In this document: positions 11,064 to 54,927 of the stretch, piece by piece
Layout: every line of letters begins with the position of its first letter
Numbering within the stretch: the stretch's first letter is position 1
Source: an uncultured Bacteroidota bacterium
GTDB taxonomy: Bacteria; Bacteroidota; Bacteroidia; Bacteroidales; P3
DNA: 64,000 nucleotides
Reading direction: 5' to 3'
NCBI GenBank assembly: GCA_902784465.1
Contig: CACZUZ010000003.1
Span: 29,448-93,447 of the forward strand
Program-made: the position numbers and the translations under genes
The notes under the pieces: generated by a model
What the model was told of the DNA's origin: nothing
Database searches by the model: none
Seen by the model: the letters and a program-made list of their open reading frames with translations, nothing else

Positions 11064-13055
11064 CTATTTCAGATAATCCTCGTAATATTGGAACATCTTA
11101 TAATATAGATGGTTGCGTTCACGACCACGGACATTGTGCTCGTGGTGGGGATAGACGAAGTAGTCGACCTGCTTGAGGTTGTTGATGCAACGCTCTATAA
11201 ACTCGAGGGAGTGCTGCCATACCACGGTGTTGTCTTCCGCGCCGTGGATGACCAGAAGATGTCCCTGGAGGTCTTTAGCCTTGTCGAGCAGGCTCACCCG
11301 TTCGTAACCCTCAGGGTTCTCCTGCGGAGTGTCCATATAACGCTCGCCATACATAATCTCGTACCATTTCCAGTCGATGACAGGACCGCCGGCACATCCC
11401 ACCTTGAAGACCTCGGGATGGGCCAACTTCATGGTGATGGTCATGAATCCGCCAAAGCTCCAGCCCTCAACACCTATGCGGGCCTTGTCGACATAGGGCA
11501 GCGACTGCAGGAAATTCACGCCCTCCATCTGGTCGGCCATCTCAATCTCGCCGAGATGACGGTGGGTGCAGCTCTCAAACTCGAAGCCACGGTTGTCGGT
11601 ACCACGGTTGTCGACGGTAAAGACCACATAGCCCTGCTGGGCAAGGAAGGTGAAATAGAGATTGCCGCCAGCCAGCCAGCTATCGGTGACAAGCTGCGAG
11701 TGGGGGCCACCATAGACATAGACAAGGGTGGGGTACTTCTTGCCGGGTTCCATATTCGGAGGGGTGATAAGACGGTAGTAGAGGTCGGTCTTGCCGTCAG
11801 CAGCCTTGATGGTTCCAAGCTTGATGCCAGGCATAGCATAGTCCTTCAAGGGGTTTTCGACCTTGTACAGATTAGAGACCTTATGGTTGGTAGGCTTGTT
11901 GATATTAGAGACATAGTTGGCCTCACCAGGATTGTCAACAGAATTGAAGACATCAACCATACAAGTGCCTGCTTCGTTTATGACTACTGTATGCGTACCT
12001 TCAACAGCATTGTAGTTGGTCAAACACTCCATGGTGCCCTTCTTGAGGTTCACCTTATAGGCATCGCGACCGGCGAGGTTGTTCTTGTTGGCATAGATAA
12101 AGATGTTCTCGCCCTTCTTGTCGAACTGGATAAAACCCTCTACTTCGTATTCGCCACTTGTAACCTGCTTGACGAGGCTTCCGTCGAGGTTGTAGAGATA
12201 GAGATGCTTGTAGCCGTCGCGCATCGAGAACCAGAGGAACTGGTCACCCTTGGGGGTAAATATCATAGGCTCACAAGGCTCAACATAGCGAGGGTTGGTC
12301 TCCTCGAAGAGTACCTTCATGAAGGCTCCCGTCACGGCATCGTACTGCTCAAGCCACATGTGGTTCTGCTCGCGGTTAACCTTGGCGATGAATACATATT
12401 TCTCGTCGGGGCTCCAGGCAATGTTGGTGAGGTACATCTCACGCTCGTGGACGGTGGTGTCACGAGCGGTGTTGAGGTAGACAAGTTTCTCGTTATGAGT
12501 ATCCCAAACCCCAACAGTAACCCAATGGCTCTGCATTCCAGCCATAGGGTACTTGATATTGCGTACCTCGGCCTCACGGGCTTTGGTGTTGACGAGGGGG
12601 TAGTCCACAACCATACTCTGATCCATGCGGTAGAACGCCAGACGACTCTGGTTGGGAGACCAGAAGAGACCGCCCTCGATGCCAAACTCGTTACGATGGA
12701 CGCTTTCGCCAAGAACGATGTTATAGCCATCACCGCGCTCCACCAGCTTGCCGTCGACATAGAGGCAACCCTCCTTTGTCTCGACGCGCTCGCTCGGCAC
12801 GTATTTGACAACTGCCAGATACGAGTCTTTCTCTGCGTCGGTCTGCAGACGCTCCTTTTTGCCATCAAAAACCATACAGACAGTGTCTTTCATATACATC
12901 AGTTTGTCGGTTCCGGGATCAAACATGAAACCTCGCATCGGACGCTGTGGATAGAGCTTGTAGTCCATCAGCTGGTCCCACTTCAGCATCTTGCGTTGAG
13001 CCATTGCCGTGCCTGCAAGAAGCAGCACTGCAAGAATCAATAATGTCTTTTTCAT
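11064..13055 (-). CDS. S9 family prolyl oligopeptidase (dipeptidyl-peptidase IV type)
   Basis: 663 residues with a cleavable signal peptide (MKKTLLILAVLLLAGTAMAQ). An N-terminal beta-propeller (about 25-430) with repeated IAWSPDEKYVF-like blades is followed by an alpha/beta-hydrolase domain. The triad is visible as Ser533 in GWSFGGF, Asp608 in GAEDNTV and His640 in HHEHNV. The family removes X-Pro or X-Ala di- or tripeptides from peptide N-termini; in Bacteroidales such enzymes are periplasmic and complete peptide utilisation, here plausibly downstream of the C25 protease. It is somewhat shorter than typical DPP-IV (about 730). It is followed by nothing in its own direction until ribE. Confidence 0.92.
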   Translation of the reverse strand: MKKTLLILAVLLLAGTAMAQRKMLKWDQLMDYKLYPQRPMRGFMFDPGTDKLMYMKDTVCMVFDGKKERLQTDAEKDSYLAVVKYVPSERVETKEGCLYVDGKLVERGDGYNIVLGESVHRNEFGIEGGLFWSPNQSRLAFYRMDQSMVVDYPLVNTKAREAEVRNIKYPMAGMQSHWVTVGVWDTHNEKLVYLNTARDTTVHEREMYLTNIAWSPDEKYVFIAKVNREQNHMWLEQYDAVTGAFMKVLFEETNPRYVEPCEPMIFTPKGDQFLWFSMRDGYKHLYLYNLDGSLVKQVTSGEYEVEGFIQFDKKGENIFIYANKNNLAGRDAYKVNLKKGTMECLTNYNAVEGTHTVVINEAGTCMVDVFNSVDNPGEANYVSNINKPTNHKVSNLYKVENPLKDYAMPGIKLGTIKAADGKTDLYYRLITPPNMEPGKKYPTLVYVYGGPHSQLVTDSWLAGGNLYFTFLAQQGYVVFTVDNRGTDNRGFEFESCTHRHLGEIEMADQMEGVNFLQSLPYVDKARIGVEGWSFGGFMTITMKLAHPEVFKVGCAGGPVIDWKWYEIMYGERYMDTPQENPEGYERVSLLDKAKDLQGHLLVIHGAEDNTVVWQHSLEFIERCINNLKQVDYFVYPHHEHNVRGRERNHLYYKMFQYYEDYLK

Positions 13056-13088
13056 ATTGTCTCTTTTTATTTTTTTACTGATTATTAA

Positions 13089-13814
13089 TCAATACTTTCG
13101 CCAGCAGCGGAAACGAAGGTTGAAGACTCCGAAGAAAGCCTCTTTGAAGATCTTCATGCTCATCTTGCTGGTGCCGAGGACGCGGTCGGTGAAGATGATG
13201 GGCACTTCATAGACCTTGAAGCCCAGGCGGGTGGCGGTGTACTTCATCTCTATCTGGAAGGCATAGCCGACAAACTTGACCTTGTCGAACTTCATCTTCT
13301 CCAGCACACGGCGGCTCCAGCAGACAAAACCTGCCGTGGCGTCGCACACCTTCATGCCAGTGACAAGACGCACATACTTCGAGGCATAGTAGCTCATCAT
13401 CAGTCGCCCCATGGGCCAGTTGACAACGCTTATCTTGCCATCGACATAGCGGCTGCCGACAACGACGTCGCCCTTGCCTGACGAGCAGGCATCGTAGAGG
13501 CGGATAAGGTCGTCGGGATTGTGCGAGAAGTCGGCATCCATCTCTATCATGTAGTCGTAGCCGTGCTCGTTGCCCCAGCGCATACCGTCGAGATAGGCGG
13601 TGCCCAAGCCAAGCTTGCCCTTGCGTTCCTTGATAAAGAGCCGGTCGGGGAACTCCTGCATCAGCCTCTTGACGATGTCGGCAGTGCCGTCGGGAGAGTT
13701 GTCCTCGACAATAAGCATGTGGAACTCCTTCTCGAGCGAGAAAACTTTGCGGATAATCTTTTCTATATTCTCTTTTTCGTTGTATGTCGGTGTAATAACA
13801 AGCGTGTCTGTCAT
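13089..13814 (-). CDS. Polyprenol-phosphate mannosyltransferase-like GT2 (Dpm1 family)
   Basis: 241 residues, soluble GT-A glycosyltransferase. The start LVITPTYNEKENIE, the donor-site VEDNSPDGT, GLGTAYLDGM and the metal-binding MDADFSHNP are the Dpm1/PpmS signatures. The C-terminal region has VGYAFQIEMKY and FTDRVLGTSKM. It lacks C-terminal transmembrane helices, as in the short Dpm1 class. It probably transfers mannose or a related sugar from a nucleotide donor to a polyprenyl phosphate at the inner membrane. Its own TATTTTTG -7 box lies at 13841-13848, so it is separable from the signal-peptidase/VanZ operon upstream. Confidence 0.88.
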   Translation of the reverse strand: MTDTLVITPTYNEKENIEKIIRKVFSLEKEFHMLIVEDNSPDGTADIVKRLMQEFPDRLFIKERKGKLGLGTAYLDGMRWGNEHGYDYMIEMDADFSHNPDDLIRLYDACSSGKGDVVVGSRYVDGKISVVNWPMGRLMMSYYASKYVRLVTGMKVCDATAGFVCWSRRVLEKMKFDKVKFVGYAFQIEMKYTATRLGFKVYEVPIIFTDRVLGTSKMSMKIFKEAFFGVFNLRFRCWRKY

Positions 13815-13915: not shown

Positions 13916-14719
13916 TTATTTTTTCAACAGGCGAATAATAACCCAGCCCAAAGTGACGCCCAAAAAGTTTGCTATGAGGTCATTGATGTCGAAACCCCGA
14001 TAGGGCAGCAGATATTGCACCGACTCGGTGACGACACTCACGGCAACACCCATCAGCCACACTGCCGCATTGGGATTACGCCCTCGGCGGCTCAAAAAAC
14101 GGAAATCCATCAAGAAAAAGGCACTTGGCAGGTAAACCGAGGCATGGAGTAGGTGGTCGAGACGGATACCAAAAACAAAATTGTTGAGGGGCAGACCGGT
14201 GAAGCCCATCGGCGCCCACATCAAGATGAGAAGGAATGCGAAATAGAGCCAGCGCATCCATCTGCGATTGCGGCGTGAGAGAAGAATGCGGACAGCGTTG
14301 ATGAGCGAACGCCTCTTCACCACCCACCGTGAGCGGCGGCGCCACGACACCGAGTCGCAATCGTCCTGGCTGCCATCGCCATGCTCCACGACCTTCAGGC
14401 GGGCCAACACATCATTGCGTCCCACACGCTCCTTGCGCATACAGTTGTCGCCGCGGAAGACCATCACGTCACCTTCGATGCCCATCAGGCGATGGACAAC
14501 GCATTGACCTTCGAATAGAAAAAGATAGATGTCGCCAACCCGCATTTCGTCGCGCAAAGGCTCTAGCTGTATGATGTCGGAGCGTCCATCGATGAGCGGA
14601 AGCATGCTGCTACCGCCGAAGGATATGCGCACCGTCAGTCCCTGACTTAACCGGTCACGCATCTCTTCGACAACAAAACTCTCAGCATTGTTGGGAATGA
14701 TTATTCGATGACTATCCAT
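13916..14719 (-). CDS. Signal-peptidase-like (S24/S26) domain fused to VanZ-like membrane domain
   Basis: 267 residues in two parts. Residues about 1-115 resemble S24/S26 signal peptidases: SMLP with candidate nucleophile Ser38 in FGGSSMLPLI, and VVHRL with His76, the Ser/His arrangement of SipW/ER-type enzymes, followed by VFRGDN. Unlike ordinary signal peptidases it has no N-terminal membrane anchor. Residues about 150-267 are VanZ-like, with several membrane helices and the family residues DHLLHA, TESVQ (Glu232, Gln235), PYRGFDINDLIAN. The gene is last in an operon after a PqqD-type gene and an HPr-kinase-like gene and overlaps the latter by 8 nt. A role in proteolytic processing at the membrane of a PqqD-dependent product is inferred. 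I know of no characterised protein with this fusion. Confidence 0.78.
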   Translation of the reverse strand: MDSHRIIIPNNAESFVVEEMRDRLSQGLTVRISFGGSSMLPLIDGRSDIIQLEPLRDEMRVGDIYLFLFEGQCVVHRLMGIEGDVMVFRGDNCMRKERVGRNDVLARLKVVEHGDGSQDDCDSVSWRRRSRWVVKRRSLINAVRILLSRRNRRWMRWLYFAFLLILMWAPMGFTGLPLNNFVFGIRLDHLLHASVYLPSAFFLMDFRFLSRRGRNPNAAVWLMGVAVSVVTESVQYLLPYRGFDINDLIANFLGVTLGWVIIRLLKK

Positions 14720-15632
14720 TGGCGAGGAAGATTGTGTTGCAGCTCAGCCTTGCCGCATCGGCATCGGGAAGGCACTCAAGGTGATAGACCGGCACTGACG
14801 AGATGATGCCCGAGAGTATTTCCATCAGATAGTCTGTGTAGTAATCGTCCTGTGCCAGGGCCGGCGGCAACGAAGGGTGAATGGCCGCAAAAGCACGTGT
14901 AGTGGATAGGCGGTGGATGGCATTGTAGGGTGCTTGCGACAACCTCACAATGGCAGCCACAGGAAAGGAACGTGGCACAAAACAGGGCGTCTTGCCGCTC
15001 CACGGCGAGCCGTATGCCACCAGAAGGTCTTGTTCGCCATTGGCGTGAACGCCATCTCTATTCTTCGGCTTGAAAAGCCTTATCATCGGGCTGTCGTCGT
15101 TCAGCAGACGGGCATCATCGATATGGTTTAACCATAGGCGTGTGTGGGTACTCTTGCCTGTACCTGACTCGCCGAGGAAGAGCACAGCCTTGCCCTGGTG
15201 GACAATGGTTGACGAATGGACAAAAGTGAGCCTCGAAGGGGTGGCAAGCAATCCAACTGCAAACCACATCGCAAAACGCAGGGCGTTGCGGTCGGGGATT
15301 AAAGTGGACTCGACAACAGAACTGCCGCGACGGTAGCTCATAATAGCCAGTGGGGAACCCTCACCATCGGGAAGCATGGTGAAACTGTAGAGGTCGCCGT
15401 CGACATGAAAGAGACAACGACTATTAATCTCCTGGAAAACGAAACTGTTGAGCAACGTAGCCTGTTCCGACGGCAGGCTGACATCGCACCCGAAACGGAC
15501 TACCCATTGGGGTGCAGCATCGGTTGCAAAACGTGTATAGGCTTCATTGTTGGTAAAGAAAGCAACCTCGTCGCCCTCGACACCAACAACGTGCCCACCT
15601 AATGACATACAAAACGACTGCTGTGAATTCAT
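14712..15632 (-). CDS. HPr kinase-like P-loop kinase (PqqD-associated)
   Basis: An ATG at 15632 gives 306 residues; a TTG at 15644 overlapping the pqqD-like stop would add four. The C-terminal half carries the HprK/PEPCK-like kinase signature: HSSTIVHQGKAVLFLGESGT with Walker A GESGTGKST (residues 154-162) and LLNDDSP (Asp179-Asp180, metal-binding). The N-terminal half (about 1-115) is a poorly conserved domain. It is not the classical HprK that phosphorylates HPr, because there are no pts genes here and the N-terminal domain differs. Related kinases next to PqqD-like proteins occur in peptide-modification clusters; in paeninodin-type lasso-peptide clusters such a kinase phosphorylates the precursor. 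Its substrate here is unknown. Confidence 0.8.
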   Translation of the reverse strand: MNSQQSFCMSLGGHVVGVEGDEVAFFTNNEAYTRFATDAAPQWVVRFGCDVSLPSEQATLLNSFVFQEINSRCLFHVDGDLYSFTMLPDGEGSPLAIMSYRRGSSVVESTLIPDRNALRFAMWFAVGLLATPSRLTFVHSSTIVHQGKAVLFLGESGTGKSTHTRLWLNHIDDARLLNDDSPMIRLFKPKNRDGVHANGEQDLLVAYGSPWSGKTPCFVPRSFPVAAIVRLSQAPYNAIHRLSTTRAFAAIHPSLPPALAQDDYYTDYLMEILSGIISSVPVYHLECLPDADAARLSCNTIFLANG

Positions 15633-15640
15633 CGGACAGT

Positions 15641-15910
15641 TCAACCTTCGATAATGTTATGCTGTTTGAGGGTGTCAACCCATTTCTGGGCATCAGCAGT
15701 GGCCGTGGCCTCGTCGACATCGAAACGGTCGAGGAGCAGCCGGCTCACGTCAGCCAGTTCGAAATCACGTCCCAACAACTCGTTCCACAGATAGAGAGAT
15801 GTAGGATTGAGGGAAATAACGGTGGTCATATCACCGGGATTACGACCTTGGAGCAGTACGATATCCTCGTCGGCAACATGGCGTACTTTGAATTTGGAAA
15901 GAATTTTCAT
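15641..15910 (-). CDS. PqqD-family peptide-binding protein
   Basis: 89 residues, the size of a stand-alone PqqD/RRE protein. It shows the family pattern: an N-terminal strand pair (FKVRHVADEDIVLLQG), TVISLNPTSLYLWNELLG, then helices with VSRLLLDRFDVDEATATADA and a C-terminal LKQHNIIEG. In RiPP pathways such proteins bind the leader of a precursor peptide and present it to modifying enzymes. It is first in the operon, 9 nt before the kinase ATG. No radical SAM or cyclase gene follows. A candidate promoter is at 16064-16071, leaving a leader of about 145 nt. Confidence 0.82.
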   Translation of the reverse strand: MKILSKFKVRHVADEDIVLLQGRNPGDMTTVISLNPTSLYLWNELLGRDFELADVSRLLLDRFDVDEATATADAQKWVDTLKQHNIIEG

Positions 15911-33297: not shown

Positions 33298-34338
33298 TTA
33301 GACTATGGCTTCAAACTGACGGAGAAAACGGAGGTCGTTCTCGAAATAGAGGCGAAGGTCGCGTATCTGGTATTTCAGCATTGCCATACGTTCCACGCCC
33401 ATACCGAGGGCAAAACCGCTATATTCATTGGGGTCGATATTGCAGGAGGCCAGGACATTGGGGTCTACCATGCCACAACCCAGAATCTCAAGCCAACCGG
33501 TACCCTTGCAAATATTGCAACCCTTGCCTCCGCAGATGTTGCAGGAGATGTCCATTTCGGCTGATGGCTCGGTGAAGGGGAAATAGGAGGGTCTGAGGCG
33601 TATCTGCGTATTCTCACCGAACATCTCTTTGGCAAAATAGAGCAGCGTCTGCTTCAAATCAGCGAAAGAGACCTTTTTGTCCACATAGAGGGCCTCGACC
33701 TGATGGAAGATGCAGTGGGCACGGGCAGAGATTGCCTCATTGCGGAACACGCGACCCGGAGCGATGATACGGATAGGAGGCTTGTTGTTCTCCATCACGC
33801 GAACCTGTACCGAGGAGGTGTGTGTACGCAACGCCACATCGTCTATACCTTCGCCCTTCTCAACAAAGAAGGTGTCCTGCATGTCGCGGGCAGGATGGTC
33901 ATGCGGAAAGTTAAGTGCTGTGAAAAGATGCCAGTCATCCTCTATCTCTACCGACTCGGCAACAGTAAAACCAATACGGGAGAAAATGTCAATAATCTCG
34001 TTCATGACTACCGAAAGCACATGACGGCTACCGATAGACGAGTAGTCTGTAGGCATCGTAAGATCCATGGAACTAGACTGTTGTTCGCTATTTTCAACAG
34101 TCTGCTTAAATTCTTCAATCTTAGCCTGCGCCGCATTTTTCAGACGGTTAAGTGCTTGACCTACTTCTTTTTTCTGGTCGTTGGGAACGGATTTGAATTT
34201 GTCGAAGAGGTCACTAATGACACCTTTCTTGCCTAAATATTTGATTCTAAATTGTTCTACCTGCTGTGCGCGATCATTCGACTTCTCTATGGAAGCGAGT
34301 TGTATATCACGGATAAAATCTTCTATCTCTTTTAGCAT
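33298..34338 (-). CDS. pheS: Phenylalanyl-tRNA synthetase alpha subunit
   Basis: 346 residues. An N-terminal coiled coil (about 1-90) that contacts tRNA is followed by the class II catalytic core. Motif 2 is FRNEAISARAHCIFHQVE and motif 3 includes GFALGMGVERMAML. It forms the alpha2beta2 enzyme with PheT, which is not in this window. The internal NICGGKGCNICKGTGW has four Cys in two CxxC pairs. The leader between the PPIase gene and the pheS ATG is filled by a 25-unit tandem repeat. Confidence 0.97.
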   Translation of the reverse strand: MLKEIEDFIRDIQLASIEKSNDRAQQVEQFRIKYLGKKGVISDLFDKFKSVPNDQKKEVGQALNRLKNAAQAKIEEFKQTVENSEQQSSSMDLTMPTDYSSIGSRHVLSVVMNEIIDIFSRIGFTVAESVEIEDDWHLFTALNFPHDHPARDMQDTFFVEKGEGIDDVALRTHTSSVQVRVMENNKPPIRIIAPGRVFRNEAISARAHCIFHQVEALYVDKKVSFADLKQTLLYFAKEMFGENTQIRLRPSYFPFTEPSAEMDISCNICGGKGCNICKGTGWLEILGCGMVDPNVLASCNIDPNEYSGFALGMGVERMAMLKYQIRDLRLYFENDLRFLRQFEAIV

Positions 34339-34346
34339 TGTATTAT

Positions 34347-34548
34347 GATTTTCGGAGTATTCGGATTGTCGGATATTTGGATTTTTGGATTTTCGGATTT
34401 TCGGATTTTTGGATTGTCGGATTGTTGGATTTTCGGATATTTGGATTTTCGGATTGTCGGATTGTCGGATTTTTGGATGTTCGGATTATTGGATGTTCGG
34501 ATTTTTGGATGTTCGGATTGTCGGATTTATGGATTTTAGGAGTATTCG
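34347..34548. repeat. 25-unit 8-nt degenerate tandem repeat in front of pheS
   Basis: On the plus strand, 23 eight-nt units of the GATTKTYG family (GATTTTCG, GATTGTCG, GATTTTTG, GATGTTCG, GATATTTG) are bounded near each end by a nine-nt unit GAGTATTCG. The outermost 17 bases at the two ends (34347-34363 and 34532-34548) are direct repeats differing at one base. The array begins 8 bases before the pheS ATG. It is the same family and orientation relative to the gene as the cysS array. Confidence 0.95.
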
Positions 34549-34597
34549 TCGTTCTAGGCTGTTACGTAATGGAAAAAAACGTCGACTATTTTTTTGG

Positions 34598-35284
34598 TTA
34601 GTCTATTACAGAAATCTTCATAGTGACATCCTCGATAGGACGGTCTCCACGGCCGCAACGGACTGCGGCAATCTTGTCAATCACATCCAGACCCTCTACC
34701 ACCTGACCAAAGACCGTATAGTCATAGTCCAAATGAGGTGTGCCACCTACTGTGGTGTATGTCTCGATTTGCTGTTTGTCGAACTGACGCCCCATCTGCA
34801 TACCCATACGCTGAAGGTCTTCGGCTTTCCAAACATTGCCTTGGACAAGATAGAACTGGCAAGAAGAAGAGGCCTTAGTAGGGTTGACCTGGTCGCCCTG
34901 ACGTGCTGCAGCCAGGGCTCCTTTCTTATGGATGAGCCCCTGCACAAATTCGGCGGGCACAGTGTAGCCAAGAGTGCCGTTGCCAAGCATGGTCCCAGGG
35001 GCTGCACCACGTGAGTTGGGGTCACCACCCTGAATCATAAAATTATTGATGACACGGTGGAAAAGAAGTCCATCATAAAAGCCCTCTTTTACCAACTTTA
35101 AGAAATTATCACGGTGTTTTGGAGTCTCATTATAGAGCTCTACAGTCATATTTCCGAGGCTCGTTTCAATGAGTACACGATATTTTTTTTCGGGCATATT
35201 AGATTGTGTTTTAGAATTTTGAGCTGTACAGGAGACTAGTGTTGCAAAAAAAAGCAAGAGAAAAGTGAATTTTTTTGTTTTCAT
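34598..35284 (-). CDS. Cyclophilin-type peptidyl-prolyl isomerase lipoprotein
   Basis: 228 residues from the ATG at 35284, chosen because it gives the lipoprotein signal MKTKKFTFLLLFFATLVSC with Cys19; an upstream in-frame ATG is ignored. The mature part is a cyclophilin domain with GLLFHRVINNFMIQGGDP and SRGAAPG, followed by GALAAARQGD and SSSCQFYLV. A 40-residue insert (about 150-190, MGMQMGRQFDKQQIETYT) distinguishes it from minimal cyclophilins. It accelerates cis-trans proline isomerisation during folding in the periplasm. A -7 box lies at 35313-35320. Confidence 0.92.
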   Translation of the reverse strand: MKTKKFTFLLLFFATLVSCTAQNSKTQSNMPEKKYRVLIETSLGNMTVELYNETPKHRDNFLKLVKEGFYDGLLFHRVINNFMIQGGDPNSRGAAPGTMLGNGTLGYTVPAEFVQGLIHKKGALAAARQGDQVNPTKASSSCQFYLVQGNVWKAEDLQRMGMQMGRQFDKQQIETYTTVGGTPHLDYDYTVFGQVVEGLDVIDKIAAVRCGRGDRPIEDVTMKISVID

Positions 35285-37848: not shown

Positions 37849-38367
37849 TCAGTCCACAGTGGTAGGTATGGGCTTCCCGTTGAGTTTTGCGGCGACAAGA
37901 TTGTCACCCTTATAGACTAGTTTGAGAGAGAAAAAGGGCTGCTTCGGGTCCATAATCAGACGCAGGAAGATACGGTCGCCAGGCCAAAGGGTAAGGTCGA
38001 AAAGACGTTCTTTATCAATCCATTCCAACACACCCTCATCGCAGTCGGGCAAAAACATCGAAGAATTGTCCTCTGTCGACAGATAGTTGCCTGAGAACCA
38101 TCGGTCGGCTGTAAAAAGGTGCATGTATTCGCATGGCCAGATGTCGGAAATGAAAGTGACAATGCCGCGATAACGCCACGAAGTTACGGCGAGTCCCGTC
38201 TCCTCCTTGACTTCGCGCAACATGCACTCGTCGGGGCTTTCGTCGGCTTCGCACTTCCCCCCCACCCCAATCCATTTGTCATGGCTGGCGTCGTTCTCTT
38301 TCTTCACACGATGGAGCATCAGATACTTTCCATCGCACTCCAAATAGCACAATGTCGTTTGCTTCAT
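37849..38367 (-). CDS. NUDIX hydrolase (MutT-like)
   Basis: 172 residues. The Nudix box is complete: Gly37, Glu43 and REVKEETGL at residues 51-59 (Gx5Ex7REUxEExGU). Hydrolyses nucleoside diphosphate derivatives, possibly oxidised dNTPs; the substrate is not determined by the box. The N-terminus QTTLCYLECDGKYLMLHR and WIGVGGKCEADE are like 8-oxo-dGTP hydrolases of Gram-positives and Bacteroidetes. The gene sits between a terminator (38533-38564) and its ATG, with only the 9-nt repeat array between them. Confidence 0.92.
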   Translation of the reverse strand: MKQTTLCYLECDGKYLMLHRVKKENDASHDKWIGVGGKCEADESPDECMLREVKEETGLAVTSWRYRGIVTFISDIWPCEYMHLFTADRWFSGNYLSTEDNSSMFLPDCDEGVLEWIDKERLFDLTLWPGDRIFLRLIMDPKQPFFSLKLVYKGDNLVAAKLNGKPIPTTVD

Positions 38368-38384
38368 GGATTTTTCTGGTTTTT

Positions 38385-38528
38385 TCTAGATTGTCTAGAT
38401 TATCTAGACTGTCTAGATTATCTAGACTGTCTAGATTATCTAGATTTTCTAGACTGTCTAGTCTGTCTAGATTATCTAGATTTTCTAGACTTTCTAGATT
38501 GTCTAGATATTCTAGACTGTCTAGTCGA
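38385..38528. repeat. 16 x 9-nt TCTAGAYTN tandem repeat in front of the NUDIX gene
   Basis: Sixteen consecutive 9-nt units (TCTAGATTA, TCTAGACTG, TCTAGATTT, TCTAGATTG, TCTAGTCTG and similar) without an indel. The six-base core TCTAGA is palindromic and almost invariant; the last three bases vary. It starts 18 bases upstream of the NUDIX ATG and stops 5 bases before the stem of the oxidoreductase-operon terminator. Because the core is self-complementary, units can pair with one another in RNA. Confidence 0.95.
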
Positions 38529-38532
38529 TTAA

Positions 38533-38564
38533 AAAAGGCTGCACACACAAGCGTGCAGCCTTTT
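38533..38564 (-). terminator. Terminator of the 2-oxoacid:ferredoxin oxidoreductase operon
   Basis: AAAAGGCTGCAC (38533-38544) pairs with GTGCAGCCTTTT (38553-38564), loop of eight. On the minus strand it is followed by TTTTTTAATC. It lies 21 bases after the gamma-subunit stop. Confidence 0.9.
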
Positions 38565-54410: not shown

Positions 54411-54632
54411 TTAATCCTCCATATATTTCATATTCTGATGTAGATAGCGAATCGCTATGGAGAGTTCAATGTCATCCATTGTTGTCTCCAGTACCTCGCC
54501 ATCCAAACTGAATACAACAGCCTTATCAGGACGGTTCAGGTTGAGTACATGAATCCGGTCGTTCTTCCGGGTGAATGCATACCCGTTTATTATCATATCT
54601 GCTTTGTCAGCAACAGTCTTGATATCAGGCAT
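54411..54632 (-). CDS. Hypothetical 73-residue protein of the DUF4160 operon
   Basis: Starts MPDIKTVADKADMIINGYAF; the middle is strand-rich (RIHVLNLNRPDKAVVFSLDG) and the C-terminus helical (IELSIAIRYLHQNMKYMED). No family recognised. It overlaps the preceding gene by 8 nt and lies 3 nt before the DUF4160 gene, so it is probably part of one functional unit with them, perhaps as antitoxin (inference). Confidence 0.65.
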   Translation of the reverse strand: MPDIKTVADKADMIINGYAFTRKNDRIHVLNLNRPDKAVVFSLDGEVLETTMDDIELSIAIRYLHQNMKYMED

Positions 54633-54927
54633 GAGCTACACAAACTTTTTTTATGGGTTTAAGAAAAGTGTTGGAATCAATATAAAGACCTTCAAGTATG
54701 GGCTTGAGGTCAATGTAATCCTCCTCAGGCTCGGTATTGTGACTGTATTTGGCCAGAACAATCAAATAACCATTGTCCCACTTCACCACATCAACATATC
54801 TCTCCAAACTATATGGAGCCTTGAATCGTATATTGTACCCGCCAAAACAAAAAGTGGAAAAACCCTCAGCGCAACTGAGTATGGCTTCCTGACTTGACGA
54901 GGTGTTTGTATTGTTCTGGCTGTCCAT
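54625..54927 (-). CDS. Hypothetical 100-residue protein, possibly DUF2442-like
   Basis: A Ser/Thr-rich N-terminus (SQNNTNTSSSQ) is followed by a strand-rich domain: FGGYNIRFKAPYSLERYVDV, KWDNGYLIVLAKYS, EDYIDLKPILEGLYIDSNTF. The WxxGYLxV and YIDLxPIL phrases resemble DUF2442, but the match is tentative. First gene of the operon with the 73-residue and DUF4160 genes; no clear TAnnTTTG box upstream. Confidence 0.6.
   Translation of the reverse strand: MDSQNNTNTSSSQEAILSCAEGFSTFCFGGYNIRFKAPYSLERYVDVVKWDNGYLIVLAKYSHNTEPEEDYIDLKPILEGLYIDSNTFLKPIKKVCVAHA

Follow-up and report, generated by a model that had tools for sequence, protein, structure and literature searches.

Among the closest described systems are the phosphorylated lasso-peptide clusters (bsf, paeninodin and pseudomycoidin), which combine a stand-alone PqqD-type B1 protein, an HPr kinase (HPrK)-like enzyme and a precursor with a YxxPxL-type leader, together with an ABC exporter and a nucleotidyltransferase. 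The sections of PMC8498205 and PMC7533575 that describe paeninodin/pseudomycoidin-type clusters list B1, K, N and D-type genes. In the passages of PMC10368454 that deal with the bsf precursor BsfA, Tyr -17, Pro -14 and Leu -12 are required for recognition by B1, and the HPrK-like kinase BsfK phosphorylates Ser3, a reaction that B1 enhances. Several of these parts recur in a three-gene locus on the minus strand at positions 13916-15910 of a 64,000-nucleotide stretch of DNA from an uncultured Bacteroidota bacterium of the order Bacteroidales (contig CACZUZ010000003.1; the whole stretch is referred to as the window). This trio encodes, in order, a PqqD-family protein, an HPrK-like kinase and a peptidase fused to a VanZ-like membrane domain. 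With a probability of about 0.66, the operon is a shared maturation machine that would bind, phosphorylate and trim leader-bearing peptides whose genes are scattered over the genome, a predicted chemistry and function that would make it a cyclase-less relative of the lasso pathways.

Other described systems share fewer of its features. The SynChlorMet cassette contains radical SAM enzymes, of which the trio has none; its ScmC and ScmD are HPrK-like and PqqD-like as in the trio, but with the corresponding NCBIfam models the trio proteins reach only 18.6 bits (cut-off 125) and 16.2 bits (cut-off 100). The HprK-related kinases A and B (TIGR04352, TIGR04355), which belong to an exopolysaccharide (EPS)/exosortase context, are HPrK-like too, although the trio kinase falls far below their cut-offs. 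PMC12710340 names YxxP as the lasso motif, and its main text lacks the terms "kinase", "Bacteroid", "S24" and "signal peptidase". No description of the trio or of the peptides was found in the open-access literature covered, including PMC10352776 and PMC7470986 (by word search); subscription journals and most preprints lie outside this coverage, and an earlier description may exist there.

The three genes and their conservation

The open reading frames (ORFs), their order and their coupling are as a sequence-only reading of the window had described. The PqqD and kinase genes overlap by 4 nt and the kinase and peptidase genes by 8 nt if the kinase begins at a TTG codon (14712-15644, 310 aa); with an ATG start at 15608 the kinase has 298 aa and no longer overlaps the PqqD gene. 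The first gene (15641-15910) encodes an 89-aa stand-alone recognition element for ribosomal peptides (RRE) that passes the curated cut-off of PF05402 (E 3.7e-13; 50 bits vs 23.4 needed). When its profile (A7) was compared with the PDB, lasso B1 proteins came first (TfuB1, E 2.8e-7; TbiB1, 0.008), followed by a lasso PqqD (0.03) and a PQQ-type PqqD (0.27). The NCBIfam lasso B1 models remain below cut-off (21.8 vs 70 bits), and the protein has the PqqD-like RRE character of a lasso B1. It is predicted to bind the leader peptides of precursors. It is absent from 5 of the 59 genomes of the genus and present as a single copy in most.

The third gene (13916-14719, 267 aa) encodes the protease-VanZ fusion that had been proposed, and both halves hold up. 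The membrane domain, about residues 155-267 (13919-14257) by hydropathy and charge, passes PF04892 over residues 204-265 (E 6.3e-12; 46.6 bits vs 30.1). With a single sequence, Peptidase_S24 (PF00717) stays below its cut-off (E 0.009; 16.1 vs 23.3 bits), and membership in the S24/S26 superfamily is indicated by fold and catalytic residues. In the structure model (predicted local distance difference test, pLDDT, 87; predicted template-modelling score, pTM, 0.73), the first domain matches LexA C-domains (8e-4) and, more weakly, the signal-peptidase relatives SipA (5e-3) and SpsB (0.02). Gly36, Ser38, Met39, Pro41, His76, Arg77, Gly90 and Asp91 are invariant in 26/26 aligned homologues; among these, Ser38 (GGSSMLP; 14606-14608) is the predicted nucleophile and His76 (VVHR; 14492-14494) the predicted general base, with Asp91 (RGDN) at 14447-14449. 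The order Ser...His...Asp is that of the Ser/His peptidases of family S26B, and S26B signal peptidases and LexA-type S24 peptidases share both this order and the fold. Unlike those enzymes, the trio peptidase has no N-terminal anchor and carries a C-terminal VanZ domain. It also differs in residues 121-158, an Arg/Lys-rich stretch ahead of the first hydrophobic segment (13 K+R vs 1 D+E); because of this excess, the positive-inside rule suggests that its catalytic domain faces the cytoplasm.

The kinase occurs in 60/99 searched genomes and in 52/59 within the genus. The comparison covered 92 different window-type kinase loci (score >=100 bits, identical kinase sequences dropped, the window not counted): a PqqD gene lies within 5 kb in 85, a peptidase gene in 85 and both in 82. 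Since the trio is conserved in 82/92 loci, its association is not a matter of chance, and the prospect that the homologues never co-occur, which had been named as fatal to the proposal, is excluded. The chromosomal surroundings vary (purM-like, acetate kinase, rlmN and HAD genes). The kinase might conceivably act on HPr or another cellular protein in carbon regulation with its neighbours being incidental, as its HprK/PEPCK fold would allow, but a trio that holds together across several chromosomal contexts makes this highly improbable.

The genes that define a lasso pathway were also sought. The B2 protease (PF13471) is above cut-off in 0/59 genus genomes, with one weak broken match, and the cyclase (NF033535) likewise in 0/59, with sub-threshold matches in three of them (G028, G048 and G050; G and L codes designate genomes and loci) and also in 9/14 control genomes. 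The source genome has no match to either model at E<=0.001. Because neither B2 nor cyclase rises above cut-off in any of the 59, this is not a standard lasso system. Unlike the lasso clusters, the trio brings an S24/S26 peptidase into the cluster, and the precursors, scattered and with variable cores, number from several to many in a genome. An ordinary phosphorylated lasso pathway with its cyclase and B2 protease encoded away from the trio would explain the B1, K, N and D-type genes reminiscent of paeninodin/pseudomycoidin-type clusters, but in view of the lack of matches above cut-off it is scarcely credible.

Candidate precursor peptides

A neighbourhood search for short ORFs, which the sequence-only reading had advised, yielded YxxP peptides, although these lie inside the cluster only in some relatives. 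The first leads were a 62-aa ORF between the PqqD and kinase genes (L097) and a YxAP...EKGFAGS peptide (L041, L061, L062). The candidate substrates are proteins of ~40-90 aa with a YxxPx[LVI] leader followed by E[KR]G[FY] and a near-invariant Ser 19 residues past the leader Tyr (Tyr+19). A profile made from the L041, L061 and L062 peptides (A1) matched 50/99 genomes at E<=0.1, with up to 14 copies per genome. In the source genome, a 2.53-Mb draft of 88 contigs with a single kinase copy, there are seven such peptides (contigs C5, C12, C16 (two), C22, C27 and C43), six with canonical YxxP and one with a shifted YxP. The YxxPxL-type leader of lasso precursors is therefore found both in this genome and in its genus. 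One window ORF that fits a loose pattern (54631-54897) was rejected as a precursor; it has three additional residues between YIVP and EYGF, and both motifs stand at the very C-terminus, which leaves no space for a core.

A refined profile (A2, 30 peptides) was searched against 392 Bacteroidales genomes, with at least 125 bits required for a window-type kinase. At E<=0.05, matches were found in 17/392 genomes, the kinase in 31 and both in 11, such that peptides occur in 11/31 kinase-positive vs 6/361 other genomes (Fisher 1e-9). The corresponding counts at E<=1e-3 are 7/31 vs 2/361 (Fisher 3e-7), and removal of the three genomes that had fed the profile leaves 9/29 vs 5/360 at E<=0.05 (Fisher 3e-8). 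Six peptide-positive genomes have no window-type kinase (G074, G090, G096, G208, G295 and G435); two of these (G096, G435) carry a distant-type kinase and G295 a very weak match. Four listed genomes of the same family but of other genera have neither kinase nor peptide. Within the genus, a leader-only profile that ends at Tyr+16 (A5) detects peptides in 50/59 genomes at E<=0.01, up to 14 per genome, and these fall in 48/52 kinase-positive vs 2/7 kinase-negative genomes (5e-4, not corrected for phylogeny). G034 is counted there as kinase-negative; if counted as positive, the table becomes 49/53 vs 1/6.

Physical linkage was assessed with a filter chosen after examples had been seen, which accepts a same-strand YxxPx[LIVMA] ORF with Ser/Thr at Tyr+19/+20 that lies <=1 kb before the kinase; loci with <700 nt before the kinase were dropped. 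Such a peptide precedes the kinase in 6/15 distant-type loci, compared with 20/1936 strand-specific background windows (1e-8), and a seventh distant-type upstream peptide starts with TTG (L238). In G077 (L085), a peptide ends 38 nt before the kinase gene, which is followed by S26, PqqD, nucleotidyltransferase-like and ABC genes. Another region of this genome (L254, 1337-6201) contains a 48-aa precursor-like gene right after a gene for a C10-type cysteine peptidase with a Por secretion tail.

The candidate target serine, lipoprotein-like neighbours and rival readings

At the 30 loci returned with A5, which include two identical peptides, Tyr+19 is Ser in 30/30 and positions +17, +18, +20 and +21 vary; the A5 training peptides had been picked by a Ser-containing pattern. 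An independent sample from the order (30 A2 loci, Ser-free pattern) provided 20 peptides that align, with 16 Ser, 2 Thr (one of them within the genus), 1 Asn and 1 Gly. Because four of these 20 have Thr, Asn or Gly, the Ser is near-invariant rather than absolute. Of seven distant-type in-cluster precursors (L097, L235, L237, L238, L241, L242 and L245), four carry Ser and three Thr at Tyr+20. Translation of the bsfA gene places Ser3 at Tyr+19, and BsfA and the candidate precursors are therefore alike in this offset. Phosphorylation of the Tyr+19 Ser by the trio kinase is a sharp prediction.

The intact Walker A motif ascribed to this kinase (GESGTGKST) is present at 15147-15173, and its description as a P-loop HPrK-like enzyme is upheld by fold. 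In Foldseek, the AlphaFold2 model (pLDDT 94, pTM 0.91) finds PEPCK structures at E 6.7e-8 and HPr kinase/phosphatase structures at 8.5e-5, although the query TM-scores are low (0.23-0.47 among the matches listed). The protein thus joins an HprK/PEPCK fold to an intact Walker A and an Asp pair, with LLNDDSP at residues 168-174 of the 298-aa form. All listed HPrK-type models score it below their own cut-offs, including TIGR04249 (18.6 of 125 bits), TIGR04352 (14.3 of 200) and the HprK/P models TIGR00679 (12 of 240) and PF07475 (11.4 of 33.3), and hence the assignment follows from the fold evidence. Scores far below every listed curated model, the placement of PEPCK ahead of HprK/P and a conserved GSPWSGKTPC-like stretch peculiar to the subfamily would also fit an ATP-dependent regulator or some other transferase, in which case the trio would mature YxxP peptides into a product that is not a phosphopeptide. 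This alternative is unlikely given that SGTGKST and LLNDD are invariant in 21 aligned kinases, that the near-invariant Ser shares its distance from the leader Tyr with the Ser phosphorylated in BsfA, and that the distant-type in-cluster precursors offer Ser or Thr at Tyr+20.

Precursor genes frequently have lipoprotein-like neighbours, and a lipobox-like Cys was recognized by eye in 14/17 neighbouring proteins selected for printing. Eleven neighbours from G000, G354, G402 and G066 were used to train a profile, which finds a fimbrillin-like lipoprotein ORF <=1.5 kb from the peptide at 23/29 test loci from other genomes, against a background of 8/528 windows; the six loci behind the background matches (L061, L062, L221, L224, L243 and L244) all hold a peptide, and L243 and L244 had been fetched for theirs. 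The "fimbrillin-like" label is a weak one. Mfa_like_1 is found in 1/12 aligned members (E 0.003), there is one NCBIfam Mfa1-type match (E 0.07), and a PDB profile search with the family returned only two yeast Utp5 sequences. The lipoprotein profile A6 matches the N-domain as well in seven trio-positive genomes, but only the C-terminal part, among the matches listed, in five trio-negative genomes of the genus. In G021 (L260, 3093-8923), three near-identical 53-aa precursor genes alternate with ~500-aa lipoprotein-like genes, and the array also holds a fourth, divergent precursor.

These neighbours at 23/29 loci raise the possibility that the peptides are small partners of fimbrillin-like lipoproteins and not precursors, with the trio serving the same surface programme through another substrate. 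Agreeing with this are the five trio-negative genus genomes, which lack peptide matches and, among the matches listed, the lipoprotein N-domain; G208, which has a peptide and its neighbour without the trio; and the rarity of precursors beside the kinase in window-type loci. The leader nevertheless contains YxxPx[LVI], a motif ascribed to recognition by B1, and relatives encode YxxP peptides inside the PqqD-kinase-peptidase cluster, so that a pure partner role appears improbable.

A number of observations weigh against the proposal that the trio matures these peptides. The window contains none of the precursors, the source genome's seven A2 matches all falling on other contigs; by the upstream-ORF filter only 1/88 window-type loci has a peptide before the kinase (L058), and this single ORF is probably a chance occurrence. 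The L085 peptide has its Ser at Tyr+18 and fails the upstream-ORF filter. At E<=0.05, 20/31 kinase-positive genomes have no peptide, and 5/17 matched genomes (G264, G074, G295, G090 and G435) show no recognizable peptide at the matched place, their A2 matches probably being due to chance. In G208 (99% complete), which has no kinase match and no PqqD, a lipoprotein-like ORF adjoins a clear peptide, and G006 (72% complete) has nine peptide matches without kinase or PqqD. Conversely, the leader-only profile found no peptide in kinase-positive G003, G016, G026 and G029. The genus-level losses may represent a single event, and the peptide profiles were seeded from sequences at kinase-bearing loci. 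Finally, in the portion of PMC10368454 on leader variants, phosphorylation persisted after Ala changes in the YxxPxL motif, and for this reason the motif is a sign of the binding mode and not proof of need. The G208 peptide itself reads YISPEV...EKGFAQS (L244, about 7700), and its lipoprotein-like neighbour matches the 11-neighbour profile but not A6.

Four partly independent lines (trio conservation, co-occurrence, in-cluster relatives and motif register) support the maturation reading, in which the trio acts on YxxP peptides. PqqD would grip the YxxPx[LVI] leader, and the HPrK-like kinase would phosphorylate the Ser at Tyr+19. The VanZ domain would hold the peptidase, with Ser38, His76 and Asp91, presumably on the cytoplasmic side of the membrane, where the enzyme might remove the leader near the EKGFxxS motif, perhaps as the last step. 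The mature peptide may then work with the fimbrillin-like lipoprotein often encoded beside its precursor, a role that stands as a hypothesis. The bind-phosphorylate-cleave scheme of the sequence-only reading is partly supported, by its conserved trio, its lasso-B1-like PqqD and a co-occurring precursor family with the YxxPx[LVI] leader and Ser, while it missed where the precursors lie, the exporter and nucleotidyltransferase of many relatives, and the lipoprotein link.

A broader proposal, tentative and a little short of an even chance, is that these are cyclase-free Bacteroidales ribosomal peptides whose lasso-type leaders are read by PqqD, phosphorylated on Ser and trimmed by an S24/S26 peptidase, with one machine serving up to about 14 scattered precursors per genome to make phosphopeptide partners of the fimbrillin-like surface lipoproteins encoded beside them. 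If correct, an orphan trio whose kinase is present in 52/59 genus genomes would gain a substrate and a pathway, and a family of tiny proteins would gain a role. It would also mean that two modules of lasso biosynthesis, "phosphorylate" and "trim", can be separated from the lasso fold, and that a peptide-modifying machine is tied to surface lipoprotein families, which bears on cell-surface diversification in Bacteroidales. The Ser at Tyr+19 provides a precise, testable site.

Wider clusters and neighbouring genes

The exporter and nucleotidyltransferase of the phosphorylated lasso clusters are also found near many relatives of the trio. Within 6 kb, neither gene occurs in any of the 57 VanZ-fused loci (0/57 for each), whereas the other 35 window-type loci, which include those without a detected peptidase or at a contig end, have an ABC exporter in 18/35 and a PF14907-type nucleotidyltransferase in 18/35 (Fisher 8e-10 for the exporter contrast). 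The claim that the system lacks an ABC exporter consequently applies to VanZ-fused loci but fails for about half of the others. Because both genes are absent from the 57 and present in half of the rest, the VanZ-fused form resembles a larger cluster that has been stripped down and anchored in the membrane. Gene fusions among the relatives include one kinase-S26 fusion (L087) and S26-ABC fusions (L099, L236 and L239).

Two candidates for an additional component were set aside. An ORF of ~179 aa upstream of PqqD (c21, 8 loci), for which the single member scanned has no Pfam match, cannot be the fourth gene here given that the 244-nt gap in the window is too short. NTP_transf_5 (PF14907) is present in 46/59 genus genomes, with two copies in the source genome, and is missing from G013, G014, G038, G041 and G050. 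It is not claimed as a distant fourth component because it is also absent from eight kinase-positive genomes, and in 0/18 regions fetched, 17 of them around PF14907 matches and one for G034, does a labelled nucleotidyltransferase stand with the trio. Three of the regions (L304, L306 and L307) have a peptide-like ORF within a few kb of the nucleotidyltransferase. G034 carries a distinct cluster (L298, 6803-13153) that encodes a PqqD, a 50-aa Tyr-rich ORF, two HPrK-like kinases, an ABC exporter, a nucleotidyltransferase-like protein and, as judged by eye, a radical-SAM-like protein.

Downstream of the trio in the window, a GT2 glycosyltransferase of 241 aa (13089-13814, minus strand; PF00535, E 7.5e-26) belongs to cluster c3, which occurs in this position in 25/68 tabulated loci, window included. 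The gene is a neighbour whose membership in the trio system is uncertain. A DPP IV-type peptidase together with this GT2 gene (11064-13814) likewise lies downstream of the trio in 25/68 tabulated loci. Rfam gave no match in the window at the gathering threshold. At 1827-1991, 34338-34601 and 38279-38548, the window contains intergenic low-complexity ORFs with FGxSDFxIFG- or LDYLDxLD-like repeat units.

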